Positions 8,156 to 48,828 of a DNA stretch of 64,000 nucleotides are shown piece after piece; position 1 is the stretch's first letter; every line of letters starts with the position of its first letter. Both the position numbers and the translations under genes were made by a program. The notes below the pieces were generated by a model that was not told where the DNA came from, made no database searches, and saw only the letters and a list, made by a program, of their open reading frames with translations. Origin of the DNA: a virus; IMG/VR virus record IMGVR_UViG_3300033146_001643, positions 1-64,000 of that record; one strand, written 5' to 3'.

Positions 8156-10897
8156 ATGGCACGATATTATCAAAGTTGGCGTTCACAGCCACAATCACAA
8201 TTTGTAGAAAGACCTTTGGCACTCATGCAACAACGATTAGATGAGAGACAACAAGAGAGAGATTACCTAAATTCACAACTACAAGGAGATATGCAAGGTT
8301 CATTTATGCCTGGAGCTACAGCAGATGAACAAATGTTTAATGATATGCAAAATGGATTTAATACTGACATGGGGACAGCTAGGGAGATGTTACAAAATAC
8401 AGATGATTTAGATGCGGTTAGTAATTATATCAGTGGTGTTAGAAATAGATATGGCTTTAGTGGTGGAACAGGTGCAGGAATTACATCTAATAATACCAGT
8501 GGCTCTCCTGGAACTAGCCGAAGTTCCACGTCTACTTCTGGTGGAGATAATTTAGGTACAGGTAGATATGAATACGGTACTAGGCAAGATGCAGCAATAG
8601 CTAATAGAGCAGCTTATTGGGAGCAAAGTGAAGCTATAGACAAACTTATGGAGGACGGTGATATGAATGAGGCTGATAAATGGTATTTTTTAGATAAAAC
8701 TGTTAGTGATTACAATGAACGTATGCAAAATAATCAAAGTGGTAGAGGTGAATATGTAAACTTTGATAGGGAATTACGCGTTAATGAAGATGAATATATA
8801 GATGATTTATCTAAAGGGTGGAACTCTGACGGTGGGTTTAGTCAAAACAGTAATGGTGATTTTATTGATGTTGTTACTAATGAAGTAATCCCTGAATCTG
8901 ATGTACATGATTGGGGTGTTAGTCAAATAATGAATAATGATGCTATAATTAATGGTTGGAGGCGAGATTTTGCTTATGGGCAGCATAATGGAACTATTAA
9001 TAATACTGCATTAACAACTAATGCTTTAGCTAGAAGTTATAATTCTGATATAGCTGAAGCTAAAGCACAAGCAGCAGCCCATGGACAACAATATACAGCT
9101 CCAACATTTGAGGAATATAAAGCTCAGAAATTAGCTACTATGGACGAAAATTCATTATCTAATATACAATTTAATGAATATATTAATACACAAGCTGATA
9201 GAGCTGCTACTGATTTAGCTACTAAACTAGGATTCCATAAATCTAAGGTTGTTAAATATAGAGACCCTGCTGCGGAATTACGTTATACGAACGCTGCGGC
9301 TGAATTTGAGTATAATCTTCAAAATAAGACTACTGTGTCTTATGTACCAAGTGGTACTTCTAATGGTGCTACTGCCTTAGAAGTATTAGACGCAGCTTCT
9401 ACAGATGCTAATATTGCAACAACTAAAGCACCTGAATTACAACAGAATTATGATAATGCTTTTAATGCTTTTGCTGGGGCTGTTTTTACAAATACTGGCA
9501 AGTCGCAACAATTAGTATCTGCATTTAATACTGATACTGGCGGTAATGTTCTTAATTGGTTATCTAATGTTAATAGTGTTATGTATGGAGATAAATTAAC
9601 TGATGAATCCAGTAGATTGCTAGTATCTAATCCTATTACAGGTAATGTAGCTTTGGGGGATAATGCTAGAAATGAATATGAGAGGTTAAATAGTACTAAT
9701 TTATCTGATACAGAGTGGAATCAAGTACGTAGAACATTAAATGAGAGTATTGCTAGTATAAATGAAAGTCAATCAGCTGTTAGGACTAATAATGTACTAT
9801 TAGCTGCTGCTAATAATACACAAAATGTTATTCGGGGAAATGCTATTGATGAGCTTGGCGGCGATGAATTTTTACAAGCTGGGTATCACCAATATTTAGT
9901 TCAAACTGGAAATGAAGATGATTTATCATTTGAAGATTTTTCTAAAGCATACTATAGTAATAATGCTAGTAGTGGGTTATTAGCAGAAGTACAAACTGCG
10001 TTTGTTGCTGCTGGTACGGCTAATAGAGATAATAGGTATGCTACTGAATTAACTAATGTATTTACTGAAATGAATAAAATAGTTAATAACCAAATAACTA
10101 ATTCAAATTATGATGCTGGGGTGGTAAGCTTTAGTGTTGATTATGATAAAGCTGGCACAGCATATAACGCATACAGCGATAGATTAATACAAACTATGAA
10201 TAATGAGGGTGTACTTAGTTCATTAGTACTAACTGACGGCACATTTGCAGCACAAGCATTATTTGAAGGACGCGGTTCTTTTGATACTGACAAACCTTAT
10301 AGTATAGTAGATATGTCAGAGCAGCGAGATAATAGGGGCGGGGTCTCAACTGTATTAACATTTAAACAAGGCGATGAAACTAAAACAATTACATATTATA
10401 ATAATGTTAATTCTGAAATAATAGGTAATGGGCATACAAATTTACAGACTGATGCTGCTGATGCTTGTATTGAAACAATTAGTGTTAATAGAGGTAGTGC
10501 TAATGCTTCAATGCCTTATCAAAGTACAACTGGTTGGAGTCAGCAAGATAATGTTTTAGCTACACAACTCGGAAGTAATAATACGCAAACTGTTGAAAGT
10601 TCTGCTATGATAGATGGAGTATTACGTGGAAGTGATGGTGAATATACTGATGTTAATTCTCCAGTAAGCGGTAATAATTATAGAGTAACTAATACAGGTA
10701 ATAATACTGTTAGAATTGATTTAGTATTACCTAATGGAGATACTATGCCTGTAACTACTAACCCTATTGCTAATCAAACAGGAGTGTTTGAGACTATAGG
10801 GAAACAAGAATATGTAACAATCGCAACTGGTAATTTTGCTAAAAATAATGCTTATACTAATACTAATATAAACGAACAGTTAAATCCTGCTAATTAA
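8156..10897 (+). CDS. Large virion cargo protein upstream of the RNA polymerase
   Basis: 913 aa, no recognised catalytic motif. The N-terminus has a Gln-rich stretch (QSWRSQPQSQFVERPLALMQ), followed by a Ser/Gly/Thr linker near residues 100-140 and then mainly helical sequence rich in Asn, Asp, Ala. It sits six bases before the giant polymerase gene, in the position of the packaged cargo proteins of crAss-like phages that travel with the virion RNA polymerase. It starts after a terminator, so it and the two giant genes probably form one transcript. Function is inferred from position only. Confidence 0.5.
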   Translation: MARYYQSWRSQPQSQFVERPLALMQQRLDERQQERDYLNSQLQGDMQGSFMPGATADEQMFNDMQNGFNTDMGTAREMLQNTDDLDAVSNYISGVRNRYGFSGGTGAGITSNNTSGSPGTSRSSTSTSGGDNLGTGRYEYGTRQDAAIANRAAYWEQSEAIDKLMEDGDMNEADKWYFLDKTVSDYNERMQNNQSGRGEYVNFDRELRVNEDEYIDDLSKGWNSDGGFSQNSNGDFIDVVTNEVIPESDVHDWGVSQIMNNDAIINGWRRDFAYGQHNGTINNTALTTNALARSYNSDIAEAKAQAAAHGQQYTAPTFEEYKAQKLATMDENSLSNIQFNEYINTQADRAATDLATKLGFHKSKVVKYRDPAAELRYTNAAAEFEYNLQNKTTVSYVPSGTSNGATALEVLDAASTDANIATTKAPELQQNYDNAFNAFAGAVFTNTGKSQQLVSAFNTDTGGNVLNWLSNVNSVMYGDKLTDESSRLLVSNPITGNVALGDNARNEYERLNSTNLSDTEWNQVRRTLNESIASINESQSAVRTNNVLLAAANNTQNVIRGNAIDELGGDEFLQAGYHQYLVQTGNEDDLSFEDFSKAYYSNNASSGLLAEVQTAFVAAGTANRDNRYATELTNVFTEMNKIVNNQITNSNYDAGVVSFSVDYDKAGTAYNAYSDRLIQTMNNEGVLSSLVLTDGTFAAQALFEGRGSFDTDKPYSIVDMSEQRDNRGGVSTVLTFKQGDETKTITYYNNVNSEIIGNGHTNLQTDAADACIETISVNRGSANASMPYQSTTGWSQQDNVLATQLGSNNTQTVESSAMIDGVLRGSDGEYTDVNSPVSGNNYRVTNTGNNTVRIDLVLPNGDTMPVTTNPIANQTGVFETIGKQEYVTIATGNFAKNNAYTNTNINEQLNPAN

Positions 10898-10903
10898 TAT
10901 ATT

Positions 10904-13900
10904 ATGCCTGAAGATAAAATTAAATTAACCCCAATAACTATTAACGAGAACAGTGTTGCTAATACAAATAGTAATACTATTCCACCAATAGTGCCTAATA
11001 ATAATTTAGGCTTAAATAGTGATGACCCAATGGTTACTGCTAATCAAGCGTTACAAGAGCAAAATACGCAAATAGTTGATTTTAACGCACCAGCTGTATT
11101 GCGAGGTGTTAACACTAGATTAAATTATAATATAGAAGATTATGCTAAATATACTAATGGACATTTAGATGTTCCATGGACTAATGATATTGAAAGTTTG
11201 AACACAATGCGAGCCACTAATCAATCATTATTAGAAAAAGGGTGGAGAACTGTTAACCCATTAGCTAGGATAGCTAGTGTTGGTTTGGGGTTAATTAAAG
11301 ATATTGGTTATATAGCAGAATTACCTGAAGTAGTTATAGGGAAATCTGATTTTAACAATGGTTTAATAGAATGGGCTACTAAAACTAAAAATGATATTAT
11401 TCCTAGAGCATATAGAACTAATCCAGGTAAGACATTTGATTTTGGAGACCCTACGTGGTACTTAAATAATGGAGCTGATTTATGGGATAGTATAAGTGAA
11501 TTTCTCTTACTTGGTTATGGTATTGGTAAAGTAGCATCTTGGACAAGTAAAGGTTTAATTTCTATAGCTAAAACAGGTAAAGCATTAGAGACTGGGATTA
11601 ATTTAACTACTAAAACATTATCTGCGGCTAGTTTAACCTATTTTGAATCTGCTTATGGAGCTACAGATGCGTATCAACGTATCAACACCAGTTTATTATC
11701 ACAAATTAATCCATCTACTGGAAAAATGTTTACTCCAAAAGAAGCACATGAATACGCTAGTGGCGGAGCTTATACTGCATTTGGTACTAATATGGTCGTA
11801 GGCACAATATTAAATATGCCTACAATGGAATTAATTATGCCTGCTAAACGTACTGTAGTTAAAGGAGCTAGTACATTAGCAGGGTTAGAGGGCGAGACTA
11901 TTGCAGAACAACTTACTAGACTACAATCATTGGATTTATCTAATGATATTATTAAAAAGGCTATGACCGAGTATAGTGCAGGAAAAATATTATTAGAAGG
12001 AAATAATGAGGGAATTGAAGAAATATTAAATAATTGGGCAGTACAAGTTGGAGTTGATATGGGGGAAGCTAATGCACAGGGGGATAATCAACATTGGTAT
12101 GAAGCATTTGCTAGAATTGATACTTTAATGAGTCAAGCTATGAGCCCAGAAGGAGTATTAGCTTATACATTAGGGGCTATAGGTGGTATAGGACAAACTA
12201 TGGGAATGAAAGTATTACCTAGTTCTTTAGGGTATGAAAGAGATAAGGGTGGGAATATACAATATACTGAAAGTGGGCAACCAATAAATAAAACTGCTAC
12301 AATACTTGGGCAAGAACGTAATTGGGGATTTAATTTAGCTAATCAAAAAATTGAAGAAAACTTTGATGTGTATAATGTTCAACGAATGAATATTATAAAA
12401 GATTTAGAATTTATAACTGACACTAATAAAAGAATTACTAAACTAGAGAATAGTAATAATTCAGAAGATATTGCTGAAGCCGAAAGATTACGAAATGATT
12501 TATTTGCATTAAGTTCTTATCATTCTGTATTTAATCAACAAGGTGAAAATCTGATTAACACAATGAATACAGTGGCAGCTGCCGATAATACCGTTGTAGA
12601 TAAAGACGGTAAAACTGAAGCTATGCGATTAGGTATTACAAATAAACCAGACTCCGCTGTATATAAAAGCGACCATAAAGAAAAGGCTTTAGAATTAATA
12701 CCTGTAATACAAAAAGTAAATGCTGTGAATAAACGGATAATGCAAAAATATAATACAGAACAAGATATGTATTATGGTATTCCTGGATTAGTTGCAGATG
12801 TAGCTATACAAGCAACAATGGCTGAAGAAGCTTTAAATAATAAACTTACAGATAATGCTGTTAAATATGCAAATTTAACTGCATTTGGTAAATTACAATT
12901 GCAACAACAAGTGTTATCTACTATACTAGCGGATAAAAAGTCTTTTGCTTCATATATAGAGAATATAAAAAAAGAAGTGCTTAGGAACAGACCCGCATTT
13001 ATAACTGATAATAAAGTAGAACAAATAACTAGGTATAAAAAAGTACTTAAAAATAAATTAAAAGCAATAGAATCGCAATTAAAGACATTTGAAAATGCAG
13101 ATAATAAAATAGTTTTAAATAATACTACTACTGAAAACGCATTAACCGATATAGATAATATTACTGATTTATTAGTAGAAGAGGAGTTACTTAAAATGAA
13201 TAGTTTTGTTAATAACGCTTCTTATAAATATATAATTAAACGAAGTACTTTATCTAAGGTAAAAGAACAAAAAAATAAATTATATGAAGCTACAAAATTA
13301 GCACAAAAAAAAGCTAGGGATAAAAAAGTAAAAGCTGTTAAGACTAGAATGGCTAAAGATATTAAGAATACTATAACAAGAAATAAGAAAAAAGATATTA
13401 AGAAAGCACAAGAGGTTAATACTACAGATAACACAACTATTAAAAATACTAAAGACGTTGAAATTAAAAATACTACATCTAAAGATAATAATACAATCAT
13501 TTCTGGTGAAGTGATAGTAAAACAAGTACGAGCACAAGAAGTGGTAGACGCCCTAAAAGCTATATTAGTATTATTAGATGATACAGAAGCTGTGCAAAAA
13601 ATAGTACAACAATTAGACGATTTTAACGCTAAAAATCAATACAAGGAACAATTATCTACACTAATTGCTATAACTAAACAATTAGTAATTGAATATAATG
13701 GTGATAGTTTAATAACTGATATTATCAATAAACAATTAGCTGAAGTTATTGTTTTAGAAAATATCAGGAACGCGAATAATACGCAAACAAAAGTTAGCAA
13801 TAAAATAGATAATTTAACTAATGAGCAGTTATCTACAGAGAAAGAAATTGATATAATAAAGTCTAGTAAAGTGGCTAAACCAATTCTTATTACGCCACAA

Positions 13901-16900
13901 AATACCGAAGAATTGGTGGGTATAATAGATATTCTAAAAACTATAATATTATTATTACCTGAAAATAAAGATACAAAAATAGTATCTAATAAATTAGATA
14001 CTTTAAATACAGAAACCTTAGATAGTACTGATATAGATAACTTATTAGCTCTAACAAATAATATAATAAATAGTTCAAAAATAGATGTAGATATAAAATT
14101 AACAATACAAAATTTATATAGTAACGCTATTATAAATAATAAAACTAGGTTAGCTAATAATGAAATAACTAATGCTGCTAATGATTTATTAAACACTTTT
14201 GAAGCTATAACTTCAGATACTACAGCTAGTGATGCAATTAAAGCTTCTAAACGTGGAGCTGCCTTTTTAAATTTAATTGCTCTAGCTGCTAAAGATGTTA
14301 AATCAATAGGGTTAGATATGTATAGAGATACATATAAAAGAGTACTAGTTGCTAATAATTGGAAAGAAAATGATATTAAACGTATTCACGAAATGTTTAG
14401 TACGCTTATACCATTTGCTGAGACATCTGTTGGACATGCCCCAAGTACTTATGATATAGCGTGGCAATTTAAAAATACCGTTAATTATAAAGGCGATATT
14501 ATTGATATGGCAGTACAGACAGGTAATACTGGTAAACCTTATGGATTTAGTGAAAATTCAAGTATAGAGCAACAAACTGAACAAGTAGCTATCACAGCTA
14601 AAAATTATAAAAAAGTAAATAATCCTTCAGAAAGTATTGCCAATAAAGAACAGGAAGGTGTATTGGATAAATCTACTGGTAAATATATTAATGTAGATAA
14701 TGTTACTACGTTCAGTGTAGCAGATAATATAAATATTGGTGATGAAATAATATTTAAGGTTGATACTCATTATGACGGATATATAATTACAGATATAGGG
14801 GAACGTGTCATTTGGGAAGATTATAGTAAAAATCTGGGTAAAACTTCTTCTGAATATATTAACAATGTACCAATAAAAATAACTACTAAAGATGGTAAAC
14901 TATTAGGGTATCTACATACTATTAATTGGTTATCCGAAAGTAATAATAATGTACAAGATAATATTGATATAGCAGCACACAGTACGAATCTGAATCAAAT
15001 ACGTAGAACTATTATAAATAGTGATACTCCCATTATAAGTACTGTAACTGTTAAAAAAGCTGGTTCTATTAATACAACTTATGATAATAGTAAAAATTTA
15101 GTATCAGTACAAATGCCTAATTTAAAAAATGGGGCTATAGTAGTATTTAGAAATGGTAAGTTTGAACAAGTTAAGAACAAATCTGTAGCTGTTGATAATT
15201 TACATTGGTTTAATGATTTTATATTTAGTGGCATGCCAGCTGTACTCACCACAATGAGTAATGGTGAAACTTATGCTGTACCAGTAACTAGTACTAAATT
15301 AGGAGATAAAGTAAATAGTGAGTTATTAAATGGTATAATTAATTTAATACAACTATACGCTTCTCCAAAAACAGAAGAAAATAAAATAAGTAGGAACAAT
15401 ATTGCAAAAGAATTTGGTTTTGATTCTTTATCAGCTACTACTTTATATACTATAATTTCTAAATTAGTTTATTTAGAGGGATTTACAGATGAAACTATAA
15501 TGGATTTAGCTGCTAATCAAGATAGTAAAGTACGAGACTTATTTAATATTAATAAAAAGACTGGAACTATAAGATTTGCTACTACAGCTACTAATGATAA
15601 GATTACACCTTATACTATATATGAGTTACATCAAAATGGGAATATTTTTATTAAAAAGCCTAATAAGGATAAACAAATTTTAGATAAGCAACAACTTACG
15701 AATAGTTTAGATGATATACTTGTTAAATTATCAAGTATTCTAAAAAATAAAGTAGTTAATACTGACTTGGAGATGTTAAATAACTCTGAAGTATTTATGA
15801 TACCATATACTGATGATGACGGTATAAAAGTTGTTAAATTTGAATCGTATGAAGAGTTTATTAAAACTAAACTCCTTACCAATATAGTAGAAAAAAGACA
15901 ATCTATTGGTGGTAAAATTAAAATAATTCATTCAGTACAATCTACCGTAGAATTTGACTCTACATTCGCTAATACTACTAGGCAAGAAGATTCAGATATA
16001 GCTACTAATATTAAAGATAGTATTATAGAAAAAGAAACTTCTCCCTTAGATGATTTATTTGGTAAGCAAGAATCAATGGAAGAATACACAGCTAAACAAC
16101 TAAGTAAGCCTAAATTGACAATAACTTCTGAACAGCAAGAACAGCTTAAAAATCTTGGCTATACACAAGAAGAAATTAATAAAATTAACCCTGCTGTTGT
16201 TACTTCAATATTAACTTATAAAATTAAACCAGCAGTAGAAGTTACTATATCTACTGAAGAAAAAAATATTAAATTAAAAGCTGCAAGGGAAGCTAGATTA
16301 CTTAAAAGAAAGTCTAAGAAAAAAACTACTAAAAAGATTATCAATAGTTTTGAAGCCATAACATCTAATAATAATACATTTTCTGCACTAAGCAGCACTG
16401 ATAATATTACTAATATATTAGATGCTGCATTAAAAGAATCATTAATACCTGGATTATCTAGTTATGAACAACATACTGTATTAATGAATACAATTAATAT
16501 TATTAAAGACCATATTGACGGAGACTGGACTAAGGAATCTATATCTCAAACTATAGAAGCGATATTTAATCATTATGTTGATATAAGTATAGCTTTAGAT
16601 ATAGTTAAAGATGAACAAGAATTAGACGTAATTGAAGATATAAGTGAGGAGTCTGAAGCTATACAAAATTTAATTGATACATTTAGAAAATTATCTTTAC
16701 CAAGAATACTTAGTATGAAATCAATATATGATGTTATTTCTGATGATGCTAATTATAATAAATTAGTTGATATAGTATTAAAAGATTTACAAACACATGG
16801 AATACAACTAACACAACAAGTAGATGCAATTGATGAAACAACTGATTCTGAAATGGAAAATGATAACGAAACTAGTGATATTACTATTAGAAATAAATGG

Positions 16901-19900
16901 AATATAGAAAATGCTAGCGTAAATACATTTGATAGAACGTCAAGTGAATTTAAAGCTATAATTAGAACTATTCCGCAAATGGATTTTGTGCATAATACTG
17001 ATGGCACAATCAAATTTGAAAATGGTGAACCTGTTATGCAAAAAATACTTAATGTAATGGGGACAACTGAATTTGTAGAACCAGAAAGAATACAACAAGA
17101 ACTATTTTTATTATTACAAAAATTTAGTCATTTATCAACTGGTGAAAAATATAATGCTTATATTAAAACACTATTATCAACTGACCATAACACAGCTCAT
17201 CTAGTCGTACTTGGAAAAATGTTTCAAGAAGCATCTGACAAGATAAAAGCTGAATTAATAAATACAATTAGTACCCAAAAAACTAATGCTGCTATAGTAA
17301 TATGGAAAAAGAATTTAGGTGTTGATAATAATGTGCATTATGGTATGTATGTTAAAAATAGTTCTAAACCACATGAGCTGGATAAACTTAGGAGTATTTG
17401 GAATAGTCATCAGACACAGCAAATAACTAATAAACTTATTGAGAACAACGCTAAGGGTTTACCAATAGTAAAAGCAACGAGAGTCGCTTATTGGCAAAAG
17501 TATTATATGTCGATGCTTACTGATATAAAAGTTAAGAATTTACTAATACACGCTGAAAATAAAAATAATAAAAATAATAAAACAAAGCGTAAATTACTAG
17601 AATTACCAAATATGCCTGATAATTTAGTACTTAAACTATTTAATGAGATAGGGATAAATTTAACTCAAGAACAATTAAATGAATTAAAACATATAGAGAC
17701 TAATGAATTATTAAAATCATTTTTCAACCATAAAAATATGCCTAGCGTATTTAGAATAACTAGATATCCTGATTTATTTATACCCAATGGACTTATTGAT
17801 ACTATGATTAAAGACATGGGAAATCCATTAATAGATGAGTTATTATTTGAAAATAACCCATTAACTAGTATTAACTCAAAAGTGCTAGATGCTATAGCTA
17901 ATGTACAATTAAGTATAGAAGGTGGGTATGGTACAACTACATTCACTAGAGGTAACGGAACTATGCAGCAAACATATAGCCAAAATACAGCTTTATCGCA
18001 TAAAATGAATAGACTATTGGATATAAAAGAATTACCTAATGGTGGACAAGAGATGTCAAGTGAATTTAATATGCACGCAAATAGTAATATACAATATAGT
18101 GGTAGAGATAATAATGGGGAACATAAATCTAAATGGTTAGATGATATTGAAAATGGTAAGGCAGGGCAATTCCAAGTTGGGGTTGTAGATAGCTTAAAAC
18201 AGGGGGGTGTTGATAAATCTGCTGTTTTACGAACAAAAGCTACTAGAAATGAATTATTAGTTGATGAATTAGCTAGATTTACTAATTCTGGTAATAAAAC
18301 AGCACAATTTTTAATATTAGCTTTTTCTGATAAAAGTACAGCAGCAACAATAACTGCACCTAAAATAGTTACAGATATAAGTTTTTCTAATAATAAACCT
18401 AAATTTAGACAACTACAACGTAATCAAATTTGGCAATATATATTATTACCTGAAGTAGATAGAATAAATAATCATGCAAAACGAATTATTGATGGCACTA
18501 TTACTAGGAATACTTCTGGAAATCAATATTATGAAGGTGGTCTTTTATTTCAATTAACTCCATACTTGAATACACATGAATTGATGCTAGGTGATAAGGC
18601 TATGAGAAACGAAGATGGTACAATTGATGTTACTCCAGAAACTAAGCAGTTATTAATAGATGTTGTAGAAAAAGAAATATTAGCTAGTGCAGAAGAAACT
18701 AAGGCTGACATGTTATCAGCAGGTATGTTTAGAACTAGAACAGTAAAAAATAAAAATGATAATTCAGAGACTACTATTGATGAATTACATTTTGTAGATA
18801 AACAATATTTAAGAACACTAGATAATACATTAACTACTAAACAAAAATTACAATATATAGCAATAGATTTTGCTTTTAATAAAGCTATTGCTACGACGGA
18901 GTTTACTAAATTATTTGGTGGAGATATGGCTAATGTATATAAGAATAAAGGAATATCTAAAAATAAACAATTAAATACATTTATCAAAAATAATAAATTT
19001 AATTATGTACAATATTTAAACGCTAATAAAAATATACTGCAACAACAAATAGCTAAACAATGGGGAGAATATATTAAGAGAATGGCTAAAGATATAGCTC
19101 CTGGTATAGATGGGTATTGGGTTGATAGTGAGGGGAGAAATCATAATATATTTAATCAAGCATATATTAATGACTTATCCCTAGATTTAAGTGGGTATAC
19201 TGGTGTGGAAGGAGGCGATGCTCAACAATATTCTACATTAAAAGAATTTGTTATTGTACAACATGGGTATGGAAAAATATCTGATGACACTTATTCAGAA
19301 CTAATGGCTCAAATTGAAGAAGTCGAACTTATAAATAAAGAAATTATTGATAAAAATAAAGATAAGCCATTGAGTGAAATACTACCATTATTAGAACATG
19401 TGGATTTAACTAATGATTATTTAACAGAATTAGAAGAAGCTGTTAGAATATCACCATTAAAACCTGTATACGTAGGAGATGTAATTAACGAAGAACAAGG
19501 TAGAATTGATAAAAAATATATTAAAGTAGCAGTATTCCCACTTATAGGGAACGCCACTACTGGTACAGAGATTGATTATTTAAGAAGAAGAATGGAGTAT
19601 GAAGAAATAATTACTGGTAAGCCAGTTAATATAACATATACATCAGGTGTTAAAATTGGATTAAATAATGTAAGTACTGTATGGAAACCTAATACTACTA
19701 CTAATGCTACACATGCTGTAGCTAATAAACACGGCATAGAAAATATGCAATTTGAACAATTGCATAGAGACGGGTATAGAATACAACAAGAAGAACCAAC
19801 ACATGTTCATACAGAAACTGTAACAGTTACACAAGCTAACAAATTGTTATGGAGTGGTATTATGCGTATATTAGATAATACTGGTGTACTTTCTGGGTTT

Positions 19901-22900
19901 AAACATAATGGTAGTGATATGAACGTTGAGGAGTTAAAAGAGCAATTTCACACAATTAAAAAACAATTATCAAATAATGGCGTAGACCAGTTAAACAGGC
20001 GATTAGGATTGAACACTGACGGTACGTTTAAAGATTTAACTAAATTAGTAGCATTAATTAAAGATGAGATGTATACAAGAAATTACCCAGAATCTGATAT
20101 AGCTAGTATGGAAATGACGTCTATTGATGGACAACAACAAATTAAATTACCAATAGCTTTTCAAGGTAATGGACAACGCATAGAAGCATTAATTAATTCA
20201 ATAATAACTAAAGAGACTATTAAAACTAAAATGCCTGGCAGGTCTTATGTTCAAGTATCTGGACATGGTATTGGGTCAGTCAAATCATTAAGCAATACAC
20301 AAAAATCTGATATAGTTTTTACTGAATTATATACAGATAACCATTTAAAATTTGTAACTAATGAAAATGGTGTTGTTACCTATGCTCAATGTTTAGTGCC
20401 GTTTAATATAACAGCTCCAAATGGAGAATTATACAAAATAGAAGATTTTTTAATTACTAAAGATGGTAAACAATTATTAGATACAACTAGACTACCTAAA
20501 GATATATTAAAACTAATAGGGTTACGTATTCCTAATCAAGGGCATAGTTCAATGTTATTACTTGAAATAGCTGGATTTTTACCAAGTTATATGCATGATA
20601 ATATAATAGTACCCCCAGAAATAACTGCTCAAATGGGGGCTGACTTTGATTTTGACCATTTATATACATATAGTTTTAATACAGAACAAAGATTAACTGC
20701 TGAAGCATTTAATACTTATAAAGAACAATTTGATAATTTAATTGATACTAGGGGTATAATAAAATATATGAATCAACAAGTAGCTGAAAAATATGTAGGC
20801 TTACAAAATAAATTACAAACAGCTACAGAAGATGATAAGAAAATTATCAGTAAAGAAATTAAAAAGTTACAATTAAAAGCTAAAAAGAAATTATATATAG
20901 AGTTTTTAAATAATGGAAATAATGTTGTTATTGCTAAAATTAATAGTGCTGTAACAGATTATTCTATAGCTTCTAAAGAGGAGTTACAGAATGCTTATGT
21001 AGAAACATTCCATACTGTACTTAGTCATACTGCTGTGGCTAAAAAAATGACTACCCCATTAGATTTGCCTTATTTAGCTAGTGAGGCTGATAAAATAGAT
21101 AAAATTATAAATAGTATAGGGGAAAATAATTTCAACCCATTATCAACACGATTCTCTACTGATATGTATTTAGCTAATCAAGCTGGTAAATTAGGTGTAG
21201 CTATACAAAGTATAGCGTCAACATTTTTAGCTTTAATAGAAGATAAGTCTTTAAAATTAACTAACTCGGTAAATAGAAATAAAATTGACCTTAACATAAA
21301 AATTAGTACTGATAATGGAGTAATTAAATTAAATAAACTTGGTCTAGGTAATTATACCAACACTAAAGGTGATAATATATCAAATGCTGACATATTGTTA
21401 ATGTTACAAAACGAAGCTGTAGATAATGCAAAAAATCTTAACCTAGCATCTTTGTTTTATAATAAAGATACAGCTAGTATTTATAATGTATTAGCTATGT
21501 TGATTAGTAACAATAAAGAAACTTTACCATTAGAATTTCTAGTTAGATTTATAAACCAGGAAGCTATTAAAAGTTATATTAATAAATTACAGGAAACTAG
21601 TAGCACTATAGCAGAATTTACACCTAATGCTAAACAAAAAATATTTGATGATTTACTAAAAGAATATATTAATAAAGGGGCTAATAAAACAGAAATTAAT
21701 AATTATGTGGGAACAATATCTAATGGAAATTATACTTATACATATACAGAGTCAGACTTATTAAAAGCATTAAAAAGTAAAAAGCGGGATTCTAATTATT
21801 ATCAATTACAAGCAGAAACATTAATATTTGTAAAAACATTAATGGATAACGTTATACAACCAGTTCAAAATGTAATATCAGCTACTAATGGCATAGACAC
21901 AGTTGGATTAGGAAAAGATATATTTACTACTATAGCTAAACAACAAGCAGTACAAACATATTTATTAGAAAATAGTGTAGTACTTGGAGCTGGGTCTATA
22001 ATATATGATACTGATAACAATTATACGGAAATTGGTACTATGTACAATAATAGTGTAAACTTATCATTAAAAATATTAAGTACTACAACTAATAATGACG
22101 GAACTTCTATTTTACCTTACACGTCTAAGTACGCAGAAAAAATATTTATGAATTATGCTGATATATTAGGTAAAGACATACTATCTGTACAAGATTATAA
22201 AGATATATGGCGTGCTACTAAACAGCTTATAGTTAGTAAAATTATATATAATACTACTAATGCAGATAGTTTAGCAAACTTACGTAAAAGTTTATTTTTT
22301 GGAGATACTTCATTAGGAGTACAGCTTAAAAACGTAGAAAATGAGCCGTGGTTTAAAGAAAATAGATTCTTACTAAATGGTATAAATAGATTAATTGTTA
22401 AAGATGATAATGTTATAAAATATAATAAAGAAACGTCTAAATATGAAGCATTAAACAATACAACTCCTATATTAGTTAAATATGAAATGGGGGTTAAGAA
22501 AGATACAGATGACTATAGAAATATAGAAGCTATATTAGAGTTATTATATACATCTATTAGTGAATATGAAACTATAAAAGATAATATATTAGATACAGAT
22601 ATACATAAAGCTATTATTACTAAATATGAATTTGCTCAAAGTTTAGTTAACTATACTATATTAGAAGGAGGTATACAAAATGCTCAAAACTGGGTTAAGT
22701 ATTTACCAATATCATATTTAGAAGCTATAGGATTTAATAAATCAATTAGAGATATAAACTTTAATTCTATTGATGTATATGATACAATTAGTAGCCCAGA
22801 AGTAATTATACGACAATATCTACAACATAACCCTAAAAAGGCTAAAACTTTTAATCCACAATATGTTAAAAGCACTACTAAAAATAATAATATAATCACA

Positions 22901-24562
22901 TTACCATCTGCGTATGAAAAAAATTCTCCATATAGCGATATTATAAAAATAGAGATTATAGCTGGTGAAGAATATAAATCTTATCCACAATATATTAAAT
23001 ATTATGATGTAGCAACACATAAATATTATTTGTATGAAAACACAGATAAAAATAAAAATGAAACTGATATAATATTTAGAAGATTGCCACTACTAGGAAC
23101 TGATAAGTTAGGATTTAATGAATATGATGGAACAATACAGTATGCTCAAAGTAATTTAACAGATAAACAAATCTATACAGAACAAGAATTAATTGAATTA
23201 AACAAAGTTACCGAGATAGCAACTATTCCTAATATGTTATCTAATATATATGATGATACAATATTAACAACTCCTACTAGTGAAAGTATTTGGAATAGAG
23301 TAGAGGAGTTAGCTAATAACAATACTATGTTTAGTGTAGCAGCTAAAATATTGTTGGCGAATAAAGATTTAGCTAAAGAATTTGAAGTAACTATTAATAA
23401 TTCAGGTGCACGTGGTATGACTAGAGTACATAATAATACAAAAGATTTAAAAACAATAGATATATCACCTAGACTATTTGAAACTACTAAAACTAGTGGT
23501 AATGTAGAAGCACAACAAACTGAATTAAATGAGATAGTTTTACATGAAATGTTACATGGAGTATTATCTAAAATTATAAATAATGCTATGAATGGTGTTG
23601 GCAATAATAATACCATTAAAGCAGTACAAGAATTAGATAACTTACGAAAAAGTATAATAAAAAATAACCAAGTTGAATTTAATGCTTATATGGATACTAG
23701 GGGTGTATCAAGTACAGCTGAAAATATAGCTAAATTTGAAGGATTAACTAATATACATGAATTTTTTAGTTATGCTTTTACTAATAGCAGTTTTCAAAAC
23801 TTTTTAAATACACAGGCTAGAACAGATAATGGTAAGGGTACTTTATTAAATCAATTATTAGAGTTATTAAGCGTTATTTTAGATACTACTATATTAGAGA
23901 ATATTGCAGAAGATAAAGCTTTATATCAAGTATTAAGTATGGGAGTAACTGCTTTTACTAAAATCATACCGCCTAATACTCTGATAAATAATAATTCAAA
24001 TAATAATTATTCAGCTATAACATCAAAATCTTTAAATCAAGCTTATATAGATAATAAGTTAATTAATAAAGATAATACGTATAAACGTTATAGTATAACA
24101 GATAATAACTATAAAAAAATATTAAAACAAGTAGCTAATATAAATAAACAAAAATTACCATATAAAGCTAAAATAATAAAAATAGTTGGAGAACGTGGAG
24201 ATAATAGACCTATGGCGGCAATTGATAAATATTATAAATATTCTGTAGAACAACAATTATATAATAACTCTTTTGTAGAACCTATAAAACCGTTATCTTT
24301 GCAGGATATACAAAATAAATATGAATTAACTACTAAAACTGGTATTATGAAAGCAGTAATACCAACAAATAGTAATTATGAAAGATTACTACAAACAACA
24401 ATAAAAATAAATAATGATATAGCAGTTAATCATATAGCAAATGTTATTAAAACCAAAATTAACAATAAAACAATGTATACAATAGAGTTATTAAATACAT
24501 CAACTCCTGTTGATATATTATATGCTAAAGCTACTAATAACACTAATAAAATAGACTGTTAA
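10904..24562 (+). CDS. Giant virion RNA polymerase polyprotein with C-terminal zincin motif
   Basis: 4,552 aa in one uninterrupted frame. Residues 3247-3251 read D-F-D-F-D, preceded by IVPPEITAQMGA and by RIPNQGHSSMLLLEIAGFLP. This is the signature region of crAss-phage virion RNA polymerases (phi14:2 gp66 type), which share a two-barrel catalytic core with QDE-1 and YonO; the three Asp bind the catalytic metal. The N-terminal ~450 residues are Gly/Ala-rich with possible membrane-active helices. About 480-1900 is Lys/Asn-rich and includes coiled-coil stretches. Near the C-terminus, LHEMLH (H4214-E4215-H4218) is a HExxH zinc-protease motif, followed by NIHEFFSYAFTN, whose Glu could be the third ligand. 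Expected role: enters the cell with the DNA and transcribes early genes. The protease may process the chain. The polymerase call is strong; protease activity and processing are inference. Confidence 0.85.
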   Translation: MPEDKIKLTPITINENSVANTNSNTIPPIVPNNNLGLNSDDPMVTANQALQEQNTQIVDFNAPAVLRGVNTRLNYNIEDYAKYTNGHLDVPWTNDIESLNTMRATNQSLLEKGWRTVNPLARIASVGLGLIKDIGYIAELPEVVIGKSDFNNGLIEWATKTKNDIIPRAYRTNPGKTFDFGDPTWYLNNGADLWDSISEFLLLGYGIGKVASWTSKGLISIAKTGKALETGINLTTKTLSAASLTYFESAYGATDAYQRINTSLLSQINPSTGKMFTPKEAHEYASGGAYTAFGTNMVVGTILNMPTMELIMPAKRTVVKGASTLAGLEGETIAEQLTRLQSLDLSNDIIKKAMTEYSAGKILLEGNNEGIEEILNNWAVQVGVDMGEANAQGDNQHWYEAFARIDTLMSQAMSPEGVLAYTLGAIGGIGQTMGMKVLPSSLGYERDKGGNIQYTESGQPINKTATILGQERNWGFNLANQKIEENFDVYNVQRMNIIKDLEFITDTNKRITKLENSNNSEDIAEAERLRNDLFALSSYHSVFNQQGENLINTMNTVAAADNTVVDKDGKTEAMRLGITNKPDSAVYKSDHKEKALELIPVIQKVNAVNKRIMQKYNTEQDMYYGIPGLVADVAIQATMAEEALNNKLTDNAVKYANLTAFGKLQLQQQVLSTILADKKSFASYIENIKKEVLRNRPAFITDNKVEQITRYKKVLKNKLKAIESQLKTFENADNKIVLNNTTTENALTDIDNITDLLVEEELLKMNSFVNNASYKYIIKRSTLSKVKEQKNKLYEATKLAQKKARDKKVKAVKTRMAKDIKNTITRNKKKDIKKAQEVNTTDNTTIKNTKDVEIKNTTSKDNNTIISGEVIVKQVRAQEVVDALKAILVLLDDTEAVQKIVQQLDDFNAKNQYKEQLSTLIAITKQLVIEYNGDSLITDIINKQLAEVIVLENIRNANNTQTKVSNKIDNLTNEQLSTEKEIDIIKSSKVAKPILITPQNTEELVGIIDILKTIILLLPENKDTKIVSNKLDTLNTETLDSTDIDNLLALTNNIINSSKIDVDIKLTIQNLYSNAIINNKTRLANNEITNAANDLLNTFEAITSDTTASDAIKASKRGAAFLNLIALAAKDVKSIGLDMYRDTYKRVLVANNWKENDIKRIHEMFSTLIPFAETSVGHAPSTYDIAWQFKNTVNYKGDIIDMAVQTGNTGKPYGFSENSSIEQQTEQVAITAKNYKKVNNPSESIANKEQEGVLDKSTGKYINVDNVTTFSVADNINIGDEIIFKVDTHYDGYIITDIGERVIWEDYSKNLGKTSSEYINNVPIKITTKDGKLLGYLHTINWLSESNNNVQDNIDIAAHSTNLNQIRRTIINSDTPIISTVTVKKAGSINTTYDNSKNLVSVQMPNLKNGAIVVFRNGKFEQVKNKSVAVDNLHWFNDFIFSGMPAVLTTMSNGETYAVPVTSTKLGDKVNSELLNGIINLIQLYASPKTEENKISRNNIAKEFGFDSLSATTLYTIISKLVYLEGFTDETIMDLAANQDSKVRDLFNINKKTGTIRFATTATNDKITPYTIYELHQNGNIFIKKPNKDKQILDKQQLTNSLDDILVKLSSILKNKVVNTDLEMLNNSEVFMIPYTDDDGIKVVKFESYEEFIKTKLLTNIVEKRQSIGGKIKIIHSVQSTVEFDSTFANTTRQEDSDIATNIKDSIIEKETSPLDDLFGKQESMEEYTAKQLSKPKLTITSEQQEQLKNLGYTQEEINKINPAVVTSILTYKIKPAVEVTISTEEKNIKLKAAREARLLKRKSKKKTTKKIINSFEAITSNNNTFSALSSTDNITNILDAALKESLIPGLSSYEQHTVLMNTINIIKDHIDGDWTKESISQTIEAIFNHYVDISIALDIVKDEQELDVIEDISEESEAIQNLIDTFRKLSLPRILSMKSIYDVISDDANYNKLVDIVLKDLQTHGIQLTQQVDAIDETTDSEMENDNETSDITIRNKWNIENASVNTFDRTSSEFKAIIRTIPQMDFVHNTDGTIKFENGEPVMQKILNVMGTTEFVEPERIQQELFLLLQKFSHLSTGEKYNAYIKTLLSTDHNTAHLVVLGKMFQEASDKIKAELINTISTQKTNAAIVIWKKNLGVDNNVHYGMYVKNSSKPHELDKLRSIWNSHQTQQITNKLIENNAKGLPIVKATRVAYWQKYYMSMLTDIKVKNLLIHAENKNNKNNKTKRKLLELPNMPDNLVLKLFNEIGINLTQEQLNELKHIETNELLKSFFNHKNMPSVFRITRYPDLFIPNGLIDTMIKDMGNPLIDELLFENNPLTSINSKVLDAIANVQLSIEGGYGTTTFTRGNGTMQQTYSQNTALSHKMNRLLDIKELPNGGQEMSSEFNMHANSNIQYSGRDNNGEHKSKWLDDIENGKAGQFQVGVVDSLKQGGVDKSAVLRTKATRNELLVDELARFTNSGNKTAQFLILAFSDKSTAATITAPKIVTDISFSNNKPKFRQLQRNQIWQYILLPEVDRINNHAKRIIDGTITRNTSGNQYYEGGLLFQLTPYLNTHELMLGDKAMRNEDGTIDVTPETKQLLIDVVEKEILASAEETKADMLSAGMFRTRTVKNKNDNSETTIDELHFVDKQYLRTLDNTLTTKQKLQYIAIDFAFNKAIATTEFTKLFGGDMANVYKNKGISKNKQLNTFIKNNKFNYVQYLNANKNILQQQIAKQWGEYIKRMAKDIAPGIDGYWVDSEGRNHNIFNQAYINDLSLDLSGYTGVEGGDAQQYSTLKEFVIVQHGYGKISDDTYSELMAQIEEVELINKEIIDKNKDKPLSEILPLLEHVDLTNDYLTELEEAVRISPLKPVYVGDVINEEQGRIDKKYIKVAVFPLIGNATTGTEIDYLRRRMEYEEIITGKPVNITYTSGVKIGLNNVSTVWKPNTTTNATHAVANKHGIENMQFEQLHRDGYRIQQEEPTHVHTETVTVTQANKLLWSGIMRILDNTGVLSGFKHNGSDMNVEELKEQFHTIKKQLSNNGVDQLNRRLGLNTDGTFKDLTKLVALIKDEMYTRNYPESDIASMEMTSIDGQQQIKLPIAFQGNGQRIEALINSIITKETIKTKMPGRSYVQVSGHGIGSVKSLSNTQKSDIVFTELYTDNHLKFVTNENGVVTYAQCLVPFNITAPNGELYKIEDFLITKDGKQLLDTTRLPKDILKLIGLRIPNQGHSSMLLLEIAGFLPSYMHDNIIVPPEITAQMGADFDFDHLYTYSFNTEQRLTAEAFNTYKEQFDNLIDTRGIIKYMNQQVAEKYVGLQNKLQTATEDDKKIISKEIKKLQLKAKKKLYIEFLNNGNNVVIAKINSAVTDYSIASKEELQNAYVETFHTVLSHTAVAKKMTTPLDLPYLASEADKIDKIINSIGENNFNPLSTRFSTDMYLANQAGKLGVAIQSIASTFLALIEDKSLKLTNSVNRNKIDLNIKISTDNGVIKLNKLGLGNYTNTKGDNISNADILLMLQNEAVDNAKNLNLASLFYNKDTASIYNVLAMLISNNKETLPLEFLVRFINQEAIKSYINKLQETSSTIAEFTPNAKQKIFDDLLKEYINKGANKTEINNYVGTISNGNYTYTYTESDLLKALKSKKRDSNYYQLQAETLIFVKTLMDNVIQPVQNVISATNGIDTVGLGKDIFTTIAKQQAVQTYLLENSVVLGAGSIIYDTDNNYTEIGTMYNNSVNLSLKILSTTTNNDGTSILPYTSKYAEKIFMNYADILGKDILSVQDYKDIWRATKQLIVSKIIYNTTNADSLANLRKSLFFGDTSLGVQLKNVENEPWFKENRFLLNGINRLIVKDDNVIKYNKETSKYEALNNTTPILVKYEMGVKKDTDDYRNIEAILELLYTSISEYETIKDNILDTDIHKAIITKYEFAQSLVNYTILEGGIQNAQNWVKYLPISYLEAIGFNKSIRDINFNSIDVYDTISSPEVIIRQYLQHNPKKAKTFNPQYVKSTTKNNNIITLPSAYEKNSPYSDIIKIEIIAGEEYKSYPQYIKYYDVATHKYYLYENTDKNKNETDIIFRRLPLLGTDKLGFNEYDGTIQYAQSNLTDKQIYTEQELIELNKVTEIATIPNMLSNIYDDTILTTPTSESIWNRVEELANNNTMFSVAAKILLANKDLAKEFEVTINNSGARGMTRVHNNTKDLKTIDISPRLFETTKTSGNVEAQQTELNEIVLHEMLHGVLSKIINNAMNGVGNNNTIKAVQELDNLRKSIIKNNQVEFNAYMDTRGVSSTAENIAKFEGLTNIHEFFSYAFTNSSFQNFLNTQARTDNGKGTLLNQLLELLSVILDTTILENIAEDKALYQVLSMGVTAFTKIIPPNTLINNNSNNNYSAITSKSLNQAYIDNKLINKDNTYKRYSITDNNYKKILKQVANINKQKLPYKAKIIKIVGERGDNRPMAAIDKYYKYSVEQQLYNNSFVEPIKPLSLQDIQNKYELTTKTGIMKAVIPTNSNYERLLQTTIKINNDIAVNHIANVIKTKINNKTMYTIELLNTSTPVDILYAKATNNTNKIDC

Positions 24563-24586: not shown

Positions 24587-27500
24587 ATGAGTTGCCCTAA
24601 TAAAAATAATCCAGCCTGGAAGCTTCTAGTTATGAAACTAGGAGCTGACAATGCTATGCGAATATTTAAAGAGAATAATGATAATATACCACCAACAGAG
24701 ATAATTAATCAGTTGTCAATTATGTATAATAATACACAAACTAAAGTATCTATATCCAATCAAAAGATACCACAGGTATTATTAGATGAAATAAATACTA
24801 AGTATAACCTTGCTGATAGTAAAGGGAGATTACGTAAATTTAATAATGTTGAGGCTATGTTAGATAACCTCAATAGATTGCCAGGTTTTACTTTTATAGA
24901 AGTTAATAATAATGATGGAACTTCATCTATACAAGCATTTCAACAAGTTGTTAGTAATACAGATAATGATGCGGAATTTGCAGCTATAAGCAGTGAAAAG
25001 CAAAAAGATAAGCTTAAAACAAGGTATATTACATTACGTAATATAGAAGAGCTAGTTTTACCAGAAGATATTAAATTGGGGGTATTAAAATTGATTGAAC
25101 AACGAGACTTGATTAGGTCAACAATGAATAGAGACAAGTCAAAAACCGCCGCTATACAACTTGAAATTGACGATATTAATCATGTAATTACAGAAATAAT
25201 TATAAGTAAGAAATCATTAGAGCTTGTAGATATAATGGAACATAGGATTAATAGTGCTACTGCTAGGTTGAAAACTTCGGGGAATTTAACCCCAACTGGG
25301 TTAAGAATACTGTATTCTGAAATATTAGTTTGGACTGATTTAATTAATAAATGGCAAGACCCAGCTAATTCTCATTTAGAGGCTCATAATAACCCAATTG
25401 TACAACAAAGAATAGCTGGGCTATATGGTTCTTTATCAATAATACAAGCGGATTTTTTACATCTACAACAACAGCTTTATAAAAACGAAATGAATAAGTT
25501 ATTGCCACGTGAGCTTAAAGATGAAGACTTAACAAGAAGTAGGGAAATAACTAAAGCCAGGAGAATGACTACTGATTTATCTGAAGTACGAGATAGACTA
25601 GTACAATCTATAGATAAACTATTAAAAGGAGCGGATAGAAGTAGTATGAATGATTACAATAAACAAGCTAAGACTTTAGAAAATAAACTAGCGTATTTTA
25701 GAAAAAATGGACTACAATTAGATAGTAAAGAATTTAGAGATGTATTATTGCAAAAAGATAAAGATGGTGAATTAACTGGTGAGTTGGTAGATGAGCGTAG
25801 TGCTTTGTTTGAAGATATGGAGAAGAAAAATATAGCTGACAAAATATCACTTAGGTATATGGAGTCTATAAAAGGAATGTTTAGAAAAGTAAAAAGTATA
25901 AAATCATGGGAGTCTTCTGTATATATAACAGTTGATTTAGCGATGTTGCAAAATAATAAAAAGGTTGAGTTAAATAGATTAGTCGACTTAGTTGGCGAAG
26001 TTAGAGCTAAAACACTAATAGTCGATGCTGAACTTAAATATGAAGAATATAAAGCTGCTTTAGCCCACATGAAAATTATATTGGAAGAGCGTATAAAATA
26101 TGATAATGATTATAATGAGGCAGATGCTACAATAGAAAAATTTATAGGTGAACAGTCAGAAAAAAATGCTCTTATAGATGAAAAAGTTTCAAATGCGATT
26201 AGAAAATGGGAAGATAGGAATAACCCATTAAATTATACTAAATATATAACTGATACAACGCCTACCACTTATGCTATGGAGACTAATTATGTAGCTAAAA
26301 CATTAAATAGGTCTGCGTATAATGGTAAAGTGTTCAATGAGCAATTTAAAGTTATTGAGGATAATGATTTAATGTATGAATTTTATATATGGTATGTAGA
26401 ACAATTGCAAATACAAAAAGCTAAATTACCGCAAGATGTACTAGATAATATGAGCTATACATTTTTACCTGAAGTGTACAAAGAAATGACTGAAAAATTA
26501 TCTTCTGGGAAAAATGGATTAGCCAGTGTGCCTGGAAGAATATTCGAGATGTTAAAGTCTGGGGAAATAGCTGACTCATTTTTACAGAGTATAGCTGTTG
26601 ACAATAAGGTAGATAATGATAATTTATACGATAGTGCAGGAAATAAAAAGCGTGCTATACTAGTTAAATACACTAATAATAGTATAGAAATACATAAAAA
26701 AACATTAGATAACTTAGTTGTTAATAAAAGTGTATTGGAGGCTAAGCAAGCTAGTGCTTTAAAAATAATAGCTAATAATCCATCAGGCACAAAGACATAT
26801 ATAGATGCATATACTTATTTAAAAAAATCTAAAAAAGAATTAGTTAAAATTGAGAAACAAGTTGAGATAACAACTAAAAAATTAGCTACTATTAGGCGTG
26901 ATAGAAGTACTGATTTAGTGGGTGTATTAAAAGCTTTTACATTAATGGCTACGTATCATCAGCATAAAGCTATAGTAGAAGACCATGTATTAGCGGGGAG
27001 GCGGATATTAGAAAATATAGCTATGGTAGAAACCAAAGATGGCTCATTTGTAAATAAGTCAGAAGGGGCTGTGCAATTAAAAGCTGCAACTGATTATGCT
27101 ATAAATGCTGTATTATACGAAGAACAGCGTATAGATAGGCAACCAAGTGATAATGCTATATATATTAATAAAGATACTAGACAACAAAAGAAAAAAATAG
27201 ATAATGAAATGAAAGCTTTGGATAAAGAGTTTGCTAATGGCGATATAACAACCGAGGAATATAATATTGCTATAAAACATAAAGAACAAGAATTGGGGGA
27301 ATTAACTGGTAAAGCTGTAAGTTGGAGTAAAGTATTTGATAAATTCTTAACATATACACAATTAAAAGGACTTGGTTACAATGTACAATCAGCAGCTATC
27401 AATTTAATATATGGGTTGATTTCTAATCAAATGTATGCAGCGTCCTCGGAAGATATAGATAATAAATCATTAGTAGAAGCTTTTAAGATTATGAAGGGTA

Positions 27501-28609
27501 GTATGATACAAAAAACATCTGGGATAGCTGTGGGTGAAGCTCGTAAAGTAGAAGCATTAATAGATAAATTTAATGTACTATTTGAAGTAAGTGAAGCTGC
27601 TTATGGAACTAAGAACACTTTATCCGACAAAATAAAGAAATTGGGAATATTATTGCCGTATGAGGGGCAAAAACGTGGGGAATATATTATACAAGGAATG
27701 TTATTAGTAGCTATGTTAAAGAGCAAAACGATACAAATTAATGGTAAAAATATAGCATTATACGAAGTATTTAAAGAGAATGGTGAATGGGATACTGAGA
27801 AATACGGAGAAGAACAAGAAGAATGGAGTACAGATGTTACTGGTTTAAGTAATAATAGTTATACTAAATTTAGGGATAGGATTATACAAACTATAAAACG
27901 TGTTCATGGTAATTATGACCCTACATCAATGGTAGAGGGAAAAGCTACTAGTATAGGTAGAATGTTATTCCAGTTTAAATCTTGGATTCCAGCAGGTATA
28001 ACTACTAGATTTGAGCGTAAACGGTATGACCAGTATTTAGACAGAGATGTTAAAGGCAGATATAGAAGTATTAAAGATATAGGCTATGGCACAGGTTTAA
28101 AGATAATGGCTAATCCATCTTATATACTCGGATTAAAGAAAATACAACTTGATTCTTTAGGGAGATTAGCAACTGCCGAGGATTTAACTAATATGAAGTA
28201 TAATCTACAAGAGATGCGTTGGGTATTATTATCTGTAATAACTAGTCTTACCTTAGCTATGTTAGGAGCTTTTGCGAGTAATGATGACGAGGAAGAAAAA
28301 TTGATTACCTTATTAATTAATAATGCAACTAGGTTACAGGGAGATATGACATTTTATTTAAACCCTATGACTCCAATAGATTTAGTTAAGAGCCCAGTAG
28401 CAGTATTAAAATCATTTACAGATATAGTTAAATTAGTAGATGCTTCTACTAAAATTATATATAAAGATGACCCTTATTACAATACAGAATATTACTTACG
28501 TAAAGTAGCTAAGATAATACCATTTTTTAGTAACGTTGACCAACTATATGGTGCTACACAACGTACTTATGATAAGCACCCAATAATTGATGCGTTGATT
28601 AAGAAGTAG
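24587..28609 (+). CDS. Large polymerase-associated virion protein with a C-terminal membrane segment
   Basis: 1,340 aa. It starts SCPNKNNPAWKLLVMKLG, a CPN-x-P-W opening common at the N-terminus of very large crAss-like and other Bacteroidota-phage virion proteins. Long charged helices fill residues 150-950. The segment SWIPAGITTRFERKRYDQYL (from about residue 1132) is also typical of this family. One clear hydrophobic segment, WVLLSVITSLTLAMLGAFA (about 1211-1229), is followed by acidic DDEEE. It lies directly after the polymerase gene and is probably co-packaged, perhaps anchoring the complex or forming a channel during DNA entry. That role is inferred. It ends with TAG just before the bidirectional terminator. 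Confidence 0.55.
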   Translation: MSCPNKNNPAWKLLVMKLGADNAMRIFKENNDNIPPTEIINQLSIMYNNTQTKVSISNQKIPQVLLDEINTKYNLADSKGRLRKFNNVEAMLDNLNRLPGFTFIEVNNNDGTSSIQAFQQVVSNTDNDAEFAAISSEKQKDKLKTRYITLRNIEELVLPEDIKLGVLKLIEQRDLIRSTMNRDKSKTAAIQLEIDDINHVITEIIISKKSLELVDIMEHRINSATARLKTSGNLTPTGLRILYSEILVWTDLINKWQDPANSHLEAHNNPIVQQRIAGLYGSLSIIQADFLHLQQQLYKNEMNKLLPRELKDEDLTRSREITKARRMTTDLSEVRDRLVQSIDKLLKGADRSSMNDYNKQAKTLENKLAYFRKNGLQLDSKEFRDVLLQKDKDGELTGELVDERSALFEDMEKKNIADKISLRYMESIKGMFRKVKSIKSWESSVYITVDLAMLQNNKKVELNRLVDLVGEVRAKTLIVDAELKYEEYKAALAHMKIILEERIKYDNDYNEADATIEKFIGEQSEKNALIDEKVSNAIRKWEDRNNPLNYTKYITDTTPTTYAMETNYVAKTLNRSAYNGKVFNEQFKVIEDNDLMYEFYIWYVEQLQIQKAKLPQDVLDNMSYTFLPEVYKEMTEKLSSGKNGLASVPGRIFEMLKSGEIADSFLQSIAVDNKVDNDNLYDSAGNKKRAILVKYTNNSIEIHKKTLDNLVVNKSVLEAKQASALKIIANNPSGTKTYIDAYTYLKKSKKELVKIEKQVEITTKKLATIRRDRSTDLVGVLKAFTLMATYHQHKAIVEDHVLAGRRILENIAMVETKDGSFVNKSEGAVQLKAATDYAINAVLYEEQRIDRQPSDNAIYINKDTRQQKKKIDNEMKALDKEFANGDITTEEYNIAIKHKEQELGELTGKAVSWSKVFDKFLTYTQLKGLGYNVQSAAINLIYGLISNQMYAASSEDIDNKSLVEAFKIMKGSMIQKTSGIAVGEARKVEALIDKFNVLFEVSEAAYGTKNTLSDKIKKLGILLPYEGQKRGEYIIQGMLLVAMLKSKTIQINGKNIALYEVFKENGEWDTEKYGEEQEEWSTDVTGLSNNSYTKFRDRIIQTIKRVHGNYDPTSMVEGKATSIGRMLFQFKSWIPAGITTRFERKRYDQYLDRDVKGRYRSIKDIGYGTGLKIMANPSYILGLKKIQLDSLGRLATAEDLTNMKYNLQEMRWVLLSVITSLTLAMLGAFASNDDEEEKLITLLINNATRLQGDMTFYLNPMTPIDLVKSPVAVLKSFTDIVKLVDASTKIIYKDDPYYNTEYYLRKVAKIIPFFSNVDQLYGATQRTYDKHPIIDALIKK

Positions 28610-46409: not shown

Positions 46410-46669
46410 ATTATAACAATATGTTCGTTTATGTTGTTTATTTTATTAATCCCCTTTACATGAATATCAGTAAAAGCTTTATTATTTGAAATAAAGGCAT
46501 CAAATAATTTATACCTAGTGTGTAATTTTTTAATGTTCGCTATTTTAATATTTATATTATCTATAACAGCTATTCTAGGTGTGGTCATATTTAGTTTATA
46601 CACAGCTAAATTACCATGCTCTTTATGTATTTGTATTAGATTGGTTATTAAATCTTCTAATGTTCCCAT
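46406..46669 (-). CDS. Small unknown protein between polymerase and NTPase
   Basis: 87 aa, alpha/beta: LEDLITNLIQIHKEHGNLAV, then TPRIAVIDNINIKIANIKKL. The opening helix plus 'HGN..VY' strand is a pattern shared by many small phage proteins. It overlaps the polymerase end by 13 bases and the NTPase start by four, so it is translated with them. No function can be named. Confidence 0.45.
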   Translation of the reverse strand: MGTLEDLITNLIQIHKEHGNLAVYKLNMTTPRIAVIDNINIKIANIKKLHTRYKLFDAFISNNKAFTDIHVKGINKINNINEHIVII

Positions 46670-48726: not shown

Positions 48727-48762
48727 ATCCCCTACATAACAATATATCATACCTAATTGAAT

Positions 48763-48828
48763 AAAAAACCAAAGAGTATCATTAGAAGTACATAATCTAT
48801 TTACGCACAAATAATAACACTCTTTGGT
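48763..48828 (-). terminator. Terminator with long loop before the polymerase gene
   Basis: On the - strand ACCAAAGAGT (48828-48819) pairs perfectly with ACTCTTTGGT (48777-48768), followed by T6 (48768-48763). The loop is about 41 bases, long for a simple terminator. It ends the 155-aa gene's transcript and helps fix the polymerase start downstream. Confidence 0.55.

Follow-up and report, generated by a model that had tools for sequence, protein, structure and literature searches.

Can a crAss-like phage carry its virion RNA polymerase and a protease on one polypeptide, and what would such a protease be for? The question is raised by IMG/VR virus record IMGVR_UViG_3300033146_001643, of which positions 1 to 64,000 were analysed (hereafter the window). 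An original prediction, made from the letters alone, had described a giant chain joining an RNA polymerase to an HExxH protease motif, and had proposed that it is a self-processing polyprotein.

One uninterrupted reading frame joins a polymerase to a predicted zincin

The open reading frame occupies 10904..24562 on the + strand and encodes 4,552 amino acids from ATG to stop, with no internal stop, as originally described. The positions given for both motifs were also exact: DFDFD lies at residues 3247-3251 and LHEMLH at 4213-4218 (H4214, E4215, H4218), the latter being the sole HExxH among all ORFs of the window. For a chain of such composition, chance alone is expected to supply ~0.05 HExxH and ~0.94 bare DxDxD motifs, so the motifs by themselves are weak evidence. 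Domain identity is settled instead by homology, revealed by a polymerase profile and by a zincin HMM from which the window had been left out, and we hold the identity of both domains to be almost certain. An artefactual fusion through reading frame or assembly was rejected, because the sister of the window (L011, ~50% identical across the polymerase core) and phage Fpv3 share its chain layout. As judged by homology and modelling, a crAss-like phage encodes a virion RNA polymerase and a predicted metal-dependent protease domain in one chain.

The next gene (24587..28609, + strand; 1,340 aa) was identified by sequence comparison with relatives as a C module of the phi14:2 g065 C-terminal type. 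Positions 28666-56421 on the - strand form a replication block that includes a ribonucleotide reductase (30227-32509), a DnaG-like primase, a DnaB-like helicase, an ATP-dependent DNA ligase and a family A DNA polymerase (46657-48810). A PADLOC search returned no match.

The polymerase is of the phi14:2 gp66 type and lies between shared cargo modules

Residues 2800-4552 matched 141 phage records by tblastn, the best being Flavobacterium phage FPSV-D18 (E 7e-41) and the Fpv3/FpV4 group, followed by crAss-like phages; the match to g066 of phi14:2, the characterised virion polymerase, had an E of 3e-9. A profile of the core built from 43 sequences matched PDB 6vr4 (phi14:2 gp66) with E 1e-176 over the whole length of 6vr4. 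The core as modelled with AlphaFold2 (residues 2746-3680, 19139..21943, + strand) reached a pLDDT of 84 and a pTM of 0.84, and Foldseek returned 6vr4_A as its single significant match (E 3.4e-31, probability 1.00, query TM 0.68). The crAss-type polymerase originally placed around D3247 is therefore borne out by both profile and fold match, with the double-psi barrels inferred from the match to 6vr4 rather than from strand-by-strand tracing. The catalytic aspartates D3247, D3249 and D3251 (20642..20656, + strand) are invariant in the 43 aligned polymerases, as are K2917 of the VKIG motif (19652..19654, + strand), K2853, K2874 and R3208. In the polymerase tree, the window and L011 fall within a clade of 62 rows, most of which are environmental. 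PHROGs for terminase, portal and major head protein were also found.

The polymerase core itself is interrupted in some relatives. In bajarodcaudo virus 1 (L007:14571-15446) the ORF is broken at DxDxD, where an annotated endonuclease gene separates the two parts, and the interruption is probably a mobile intron. Four other loci (L066, L069, L075 and L076, around 9300-9810) have the core divided over two ORFs; ~480 bases separate these within the conserved region ahead of DxDxD, and the interruption may be an intron, a frameshift or a true gene split.

Upstream of the polymerase, residues 74-455 (11123..12268, + strand) form an N module of the crAss001 gp47 type. First hinted at by tblastn (E 3e-3), it was delimited by an iterated HMM seeded from window residues 40-460, which aligned window residues 74-455 with phi14:2 g067 44-421 (E 6.5e-65) and cr11_1 gp65 65-477; the N-terminus of cr128_1 gp51 is also homologous. 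What had been called a delivery part thus corresponds to a cargo module homologous to phi14:2 g067, and across the whole set this module sits near the N-terminus of either the upstream cargo protein or the fused chain. The C module after the polymerase is common to phi14:2 g065 and other relatives, and in 18 of these it follows the zincin in the same chain. From these two homologies, the window chain equates to phi14:2 g067, g066 and the zincin-bearing start of g065. The C module (1,340 aa in the window) is kept in nearly all relatives, and gave no convincing match in the PDB; homology to the C2 region of N4 gp50 was considered and rejected, as no profile match was obtained.

The C-terminal domain is predicted to be an intact zincin

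The zincin domain spans residues 4134-4345 (23303..23938, + strand). An HMM that included neither the window nor its sister L011, Fpv3 or phi14:2 recognised it with E 1.5e-27 (for a database size of 100,000) and matched 0/200 shuffles, which dismisses a chance motif. The --max setting was used, as the default HMMER filters overlooked this domain when the complete window chain was searched. Alignment with Fpv3 and phi14:2 g065 shows LHExxH and TN(I/V)xEF to be kept.

Conservation was counted over 71 domains located after the polymerase, one partial row lacking the HExxH columns. The general-base Glu is present in 70/70, the second His in 70/70 and the first His in 66/70. The original prediction suggested that a downstream NIHEFF could complete the zinc site, which holds for Glu4286 (23759..23761, + strand), the Glu of xEF, occupied by 66 E and 5 D in the 71 domains, and fails for the preceding His4285, whose position is variable and which was therefore discarded as third ligand. 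In an AlphaFold2 model of residues 4090-4420 (core pLDDT mostly 86-97), strands 71-75, 82-86 and 94-98 (model numbering) form a three-stranded sheet, followed by a long helix (112-140) bearing HExxH at 125-129 (HEMLH, 23543..23557, + strand) and by a later helix (195-204) with E197, that is E4286, the probable third zinc ligand. The same layout of strands, HExxH helix and later ligand helix has been described for polyvalent-protein peptidases (PMC5512222). The model supports the predicted zincin fold with H4214, H4218 and a probable third ligand.

Searches with a 52-member zincin profile matched an internal virion protein (9sfn, E 4e-18), the N4 virion RNA polymerase (E 2e-10, residues 2103-2318) and an ejection protein (8vb2, E 9e-9), while generic zincins scored far more weakly (best 9e-4); 33 of the 52 members matched PHROG 2206, 'virion RNA polymerase'. 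Against BFVD predicted viral structures, Foldseek gave 16 matches at E <= 1e-3, with ejection proteins reaching values down to 6e-6, and those with informative names were internal core proteins, an N4-like virion polymerase, polyvalent-type proteins and crAss phage proteins. Against the PDB the model had no significant match (best E 0.31), and the window domain reached the curated cut-off of none of the Pfam polyvalent or zincin families (SprT-like, 17.4 bits against 25.6).

Since a purely structural site could do without the general base that is kept in 70/70, the conservation points to a zincin that is probably an active peptidase. The first His is replaced in four relatives (L017, L029, L033 and L045, reading EELFH, EEIVH, EEIIH and KEIVH), which retain the catalytic Glu and the second His; these losses arose at least 3 times independently on the tree. 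As two further loci (L082 and L083) show no zincin, the domain is not strictly required.

Zincins accompany nearly all sampled crAss-like polymerases

We compared 85 distinct polymerase-bearing blocks, drawn from scans, annotated phages and the window. Two alignment-guided scans had yielded 83 loci, with the best 80 of 522 polymerase candidates retained and the sample consequently biased toward relatives of the window; a single-sequence scan of viral contigs had found no relatives. A zincin is nearly always present, on one side of the polymerase or the other: it follows the polymerase in 67 of the 85 (HExxH intact in 63), two of which (L019 and L026) have one on both sides, and lies only before it in 14 (13 by block comparison, and ctcc615 by its annotation). 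One block has a bare HEFGH alone, in the next gene (L090), one ends at the contig end (L016), and the close relatives L082 and L083 have no zincin in the polymerase block. Zincin position clusters on the polymerase tree, with 7 changes in all on a quick tree, so that the block counts are not independent events. A distinct upstream family with the motif YHEAFH, found in cr118_1, cr50_1 and others, is only distantly similar to the downstream zincin (hhalign 74%, 59 columns).

The pairing of polymerase and zincin is widespread in crAss-like phages, and because the zincin also resembles that of the N4 polymerase, the window is no one-off. A unique fusion was ruled out by the same layout in Fpv3 gp32 and by C-terminal zincins in many blocks. 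Nor is a single giant chain unusual, as had been supposed: Fpv3 gp32 has 4,287 aa, and chains of 4,253, 4,946 and 4,774 aa occur in ctcc615, cr118_1 and cr50_1. One locus (L013:953-20107) carries polymerase, zincin and C module on one chain, which is at least 6,385 aa long and runs off the locus.

Gene boundaries move around the zincin, which is kept about equally in fused and split blocks

The order N module, polymerase, zincin, C module is constant, while the gene boundaries shift around the zincin. With R, Z and C denoting polymerase, zincin and C module and a slash denoting a gene boundary, the 57 blocks with both neighbours visible divide into RZ/C (35), RZC (18), R/ZC (3) and R/Z/C (1), and the arrangement changed at least 11 times on the tree. 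Because the boundaries are not conserved, annotation of crAss-like cargo should treat the N, polymerase, zincin and C parts as movable modules.

An intact zincin is found in 15/21 fused and 41/56 split R-C blocks (p = 1.0), with tree-independent contrasts between fused and split too few for a decision. Degenerate sites occur in 3/18 fused versus 1/42 split blocks (p = 0.08), which is opposite to what a polyprotein would predict. Modules remain fused where the zincin is missing or degenerate, and the zincin is intact where they are separate genes. This similar retention fits a role independent of the R-C junction; with the catalytic Glu equally kept when the genes are separate, cis-processing of that junction, and hence a protease that separates polymerase from C module, is unsupported by the comparison.

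The zincin is proposed to act on phage cargo after ejection

Our overall explanation, to which we would give about even chances, is that the chain is packaged and ejected, and that the zincin cuts phage cargo after ejection rather than a fixed junction before packaging. The zincin would bind zinc and cut peptide bonds, would be held inactive inside the virion, and would act after the chain has been threaded into the next host and has refolded there, where it would most likely trim ejected cargo proteins, cutting its own chain or partner proteins in cis or in trans. This reading builds on the finding that almost all polymerase blocks have a zincin, placed before or after the polymerase. Action after packaging rather than in assembly seems reasonably probable, and timing after ejection is proposed by analogy with N4; a phage cargo substrate is slightly favoured over a host protein.

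In the polyprotein model of the original prediction, the zincin cuts the chain at assembly, before or during packaging, into delivery part, polymerase and protease. The zincin does sit exactly where gene boundaries come and go, and P1 DdrB, with a C-terminal peptidase of the same superfamily, is processed before packaging (PMC5512222). The model is nonetheless unlikely: the zincin is no more often kept in fused blocks, degenerate sites are if anything commoner there, and some giant polymerases are reported as full-length. N4 vRNAP is packaged full-size (PMC5512222), recombinant full-length N4 gp50 has been purified and imaged (PMC12633501), and P23-45 gp96, a giant polymerase bearing a zincin or metallopeptidase, is full-size in virions (PMC10770324). 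Among the bands listed for PhiCrAss001 virion gels are ones at 150, 270 and >300 kDa (PMC6235969), sizes that match intact gp49, gp47 and gp50 (154.5, 262.5 and 276.9 kDa; PMC10172136), to which they would correspond.

Iyer et al. 2017 considered self-processing ahead of packaging, inside the head or following injection, as well as host targeting (PMC5512222). An effector delivered together with the polymerase to cleave at least one host protein at an early stage of infection, the last of these options, would account for homologous domains in many injected phage proteins that contain no polymerase and for the indifference of the zincin to gene fusion and position, but its strict tie to the polymerase block in many phages suggests a phage-internal job, and we think a host-directed role rather improbable. 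A zincin fold that serves packaging, threading or keeping the polymerase inactive, with a mainly structural metal site, is quite improbable given the invariant general base (70/70), unnecessary for structure alone, even though the zincin-containing region of N4 vRNAP is needed for encapsidation (PMC5512222), the N4 gp50 C-terminal domain, HExxH subdomain included, inhibits transcription (PMC12633501), and the four relatives without the first His retain the fold.

The zincin is a recurring part of injected phage polymerases, its role still unexplained. Giant ejected polymerases must unfold, thread through the tail and refold. By sequence homology, related zincins lie on the C-terminal side of two polymerases, the crAss-like double-psi-barrel enzyme and the T7-like enzyme of N4-like phages. 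We tentatively raise the possibility, which we do not favour, that the same zincin was fitted C-terminally to these unrelated enzymes because a post-ejection peptidase is a general requirement of injected polymerases; if true, it may for instance clip them free of the ejection apparatus. That a conserved, predicted peptidase is shared by the two known types of giant podovirus offers a testable handle on post-ejection events, with culturable models in N4 (E. coli), phi14:2 (Cellulophaga) and Fpv3-type phages (Flavobacterium).

Comparison with known systems

The original prediction took a C-terminal processing protease on a phage RNA polymerase to be without known precedent. According to Iyer et al. 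2017, the RNA polymerases of N4-like phages invariably carry a fused zincin-like peptidase (PMC5512222), and the annotation 'RNAP associated protein fused to zincin protease' is already in use for crAss-like phages in GenBank. A limited literature search found no paper that describes a zincin on the catalytic chain of a crAss-like polymerase, or its homology to the N4 zincin.

The closest layout is that of Fpv3 gp32 (PHROG 16227), annotated only as 'virion structural protein', in which one chain carries the polymerase and then a C-terminal zincin (LHEVIH at 4065, 222 residues before the end), with the C-module gene next, as in the window; the two chains are ~24% identical, and NCBI places Fpv3, a phage of Flavobacterium, outside Crassvirales. 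Cellulophaga phage phi14:2 has the corresponding modules in unchanged order, with LHEIMH at residue 245 of g065 aligned to the window zincin, but divides them over three genes, g067-g066-g065, the zincin at the start of g065 being off the polymerase chain. In cr11_1 gp65 and ctcc615 AXF52200, which share the N module with the window and have a zincin in the polymerase block, the zincin instead precedes the polymerase and belongs to a separate cargo gene. N4 gp50 (Schitoviridae; PDB 9pnq, 9pnr) likewise runs from an N-terminal part through a polymerase to an HExxH zincin (C1, 2124-2375) homologous to the window type, followed by a large helical C2; it differs from the window in its unrelated T7-like single-subunit polymerase and in a C2 that gave no profile match to the crAss C module.
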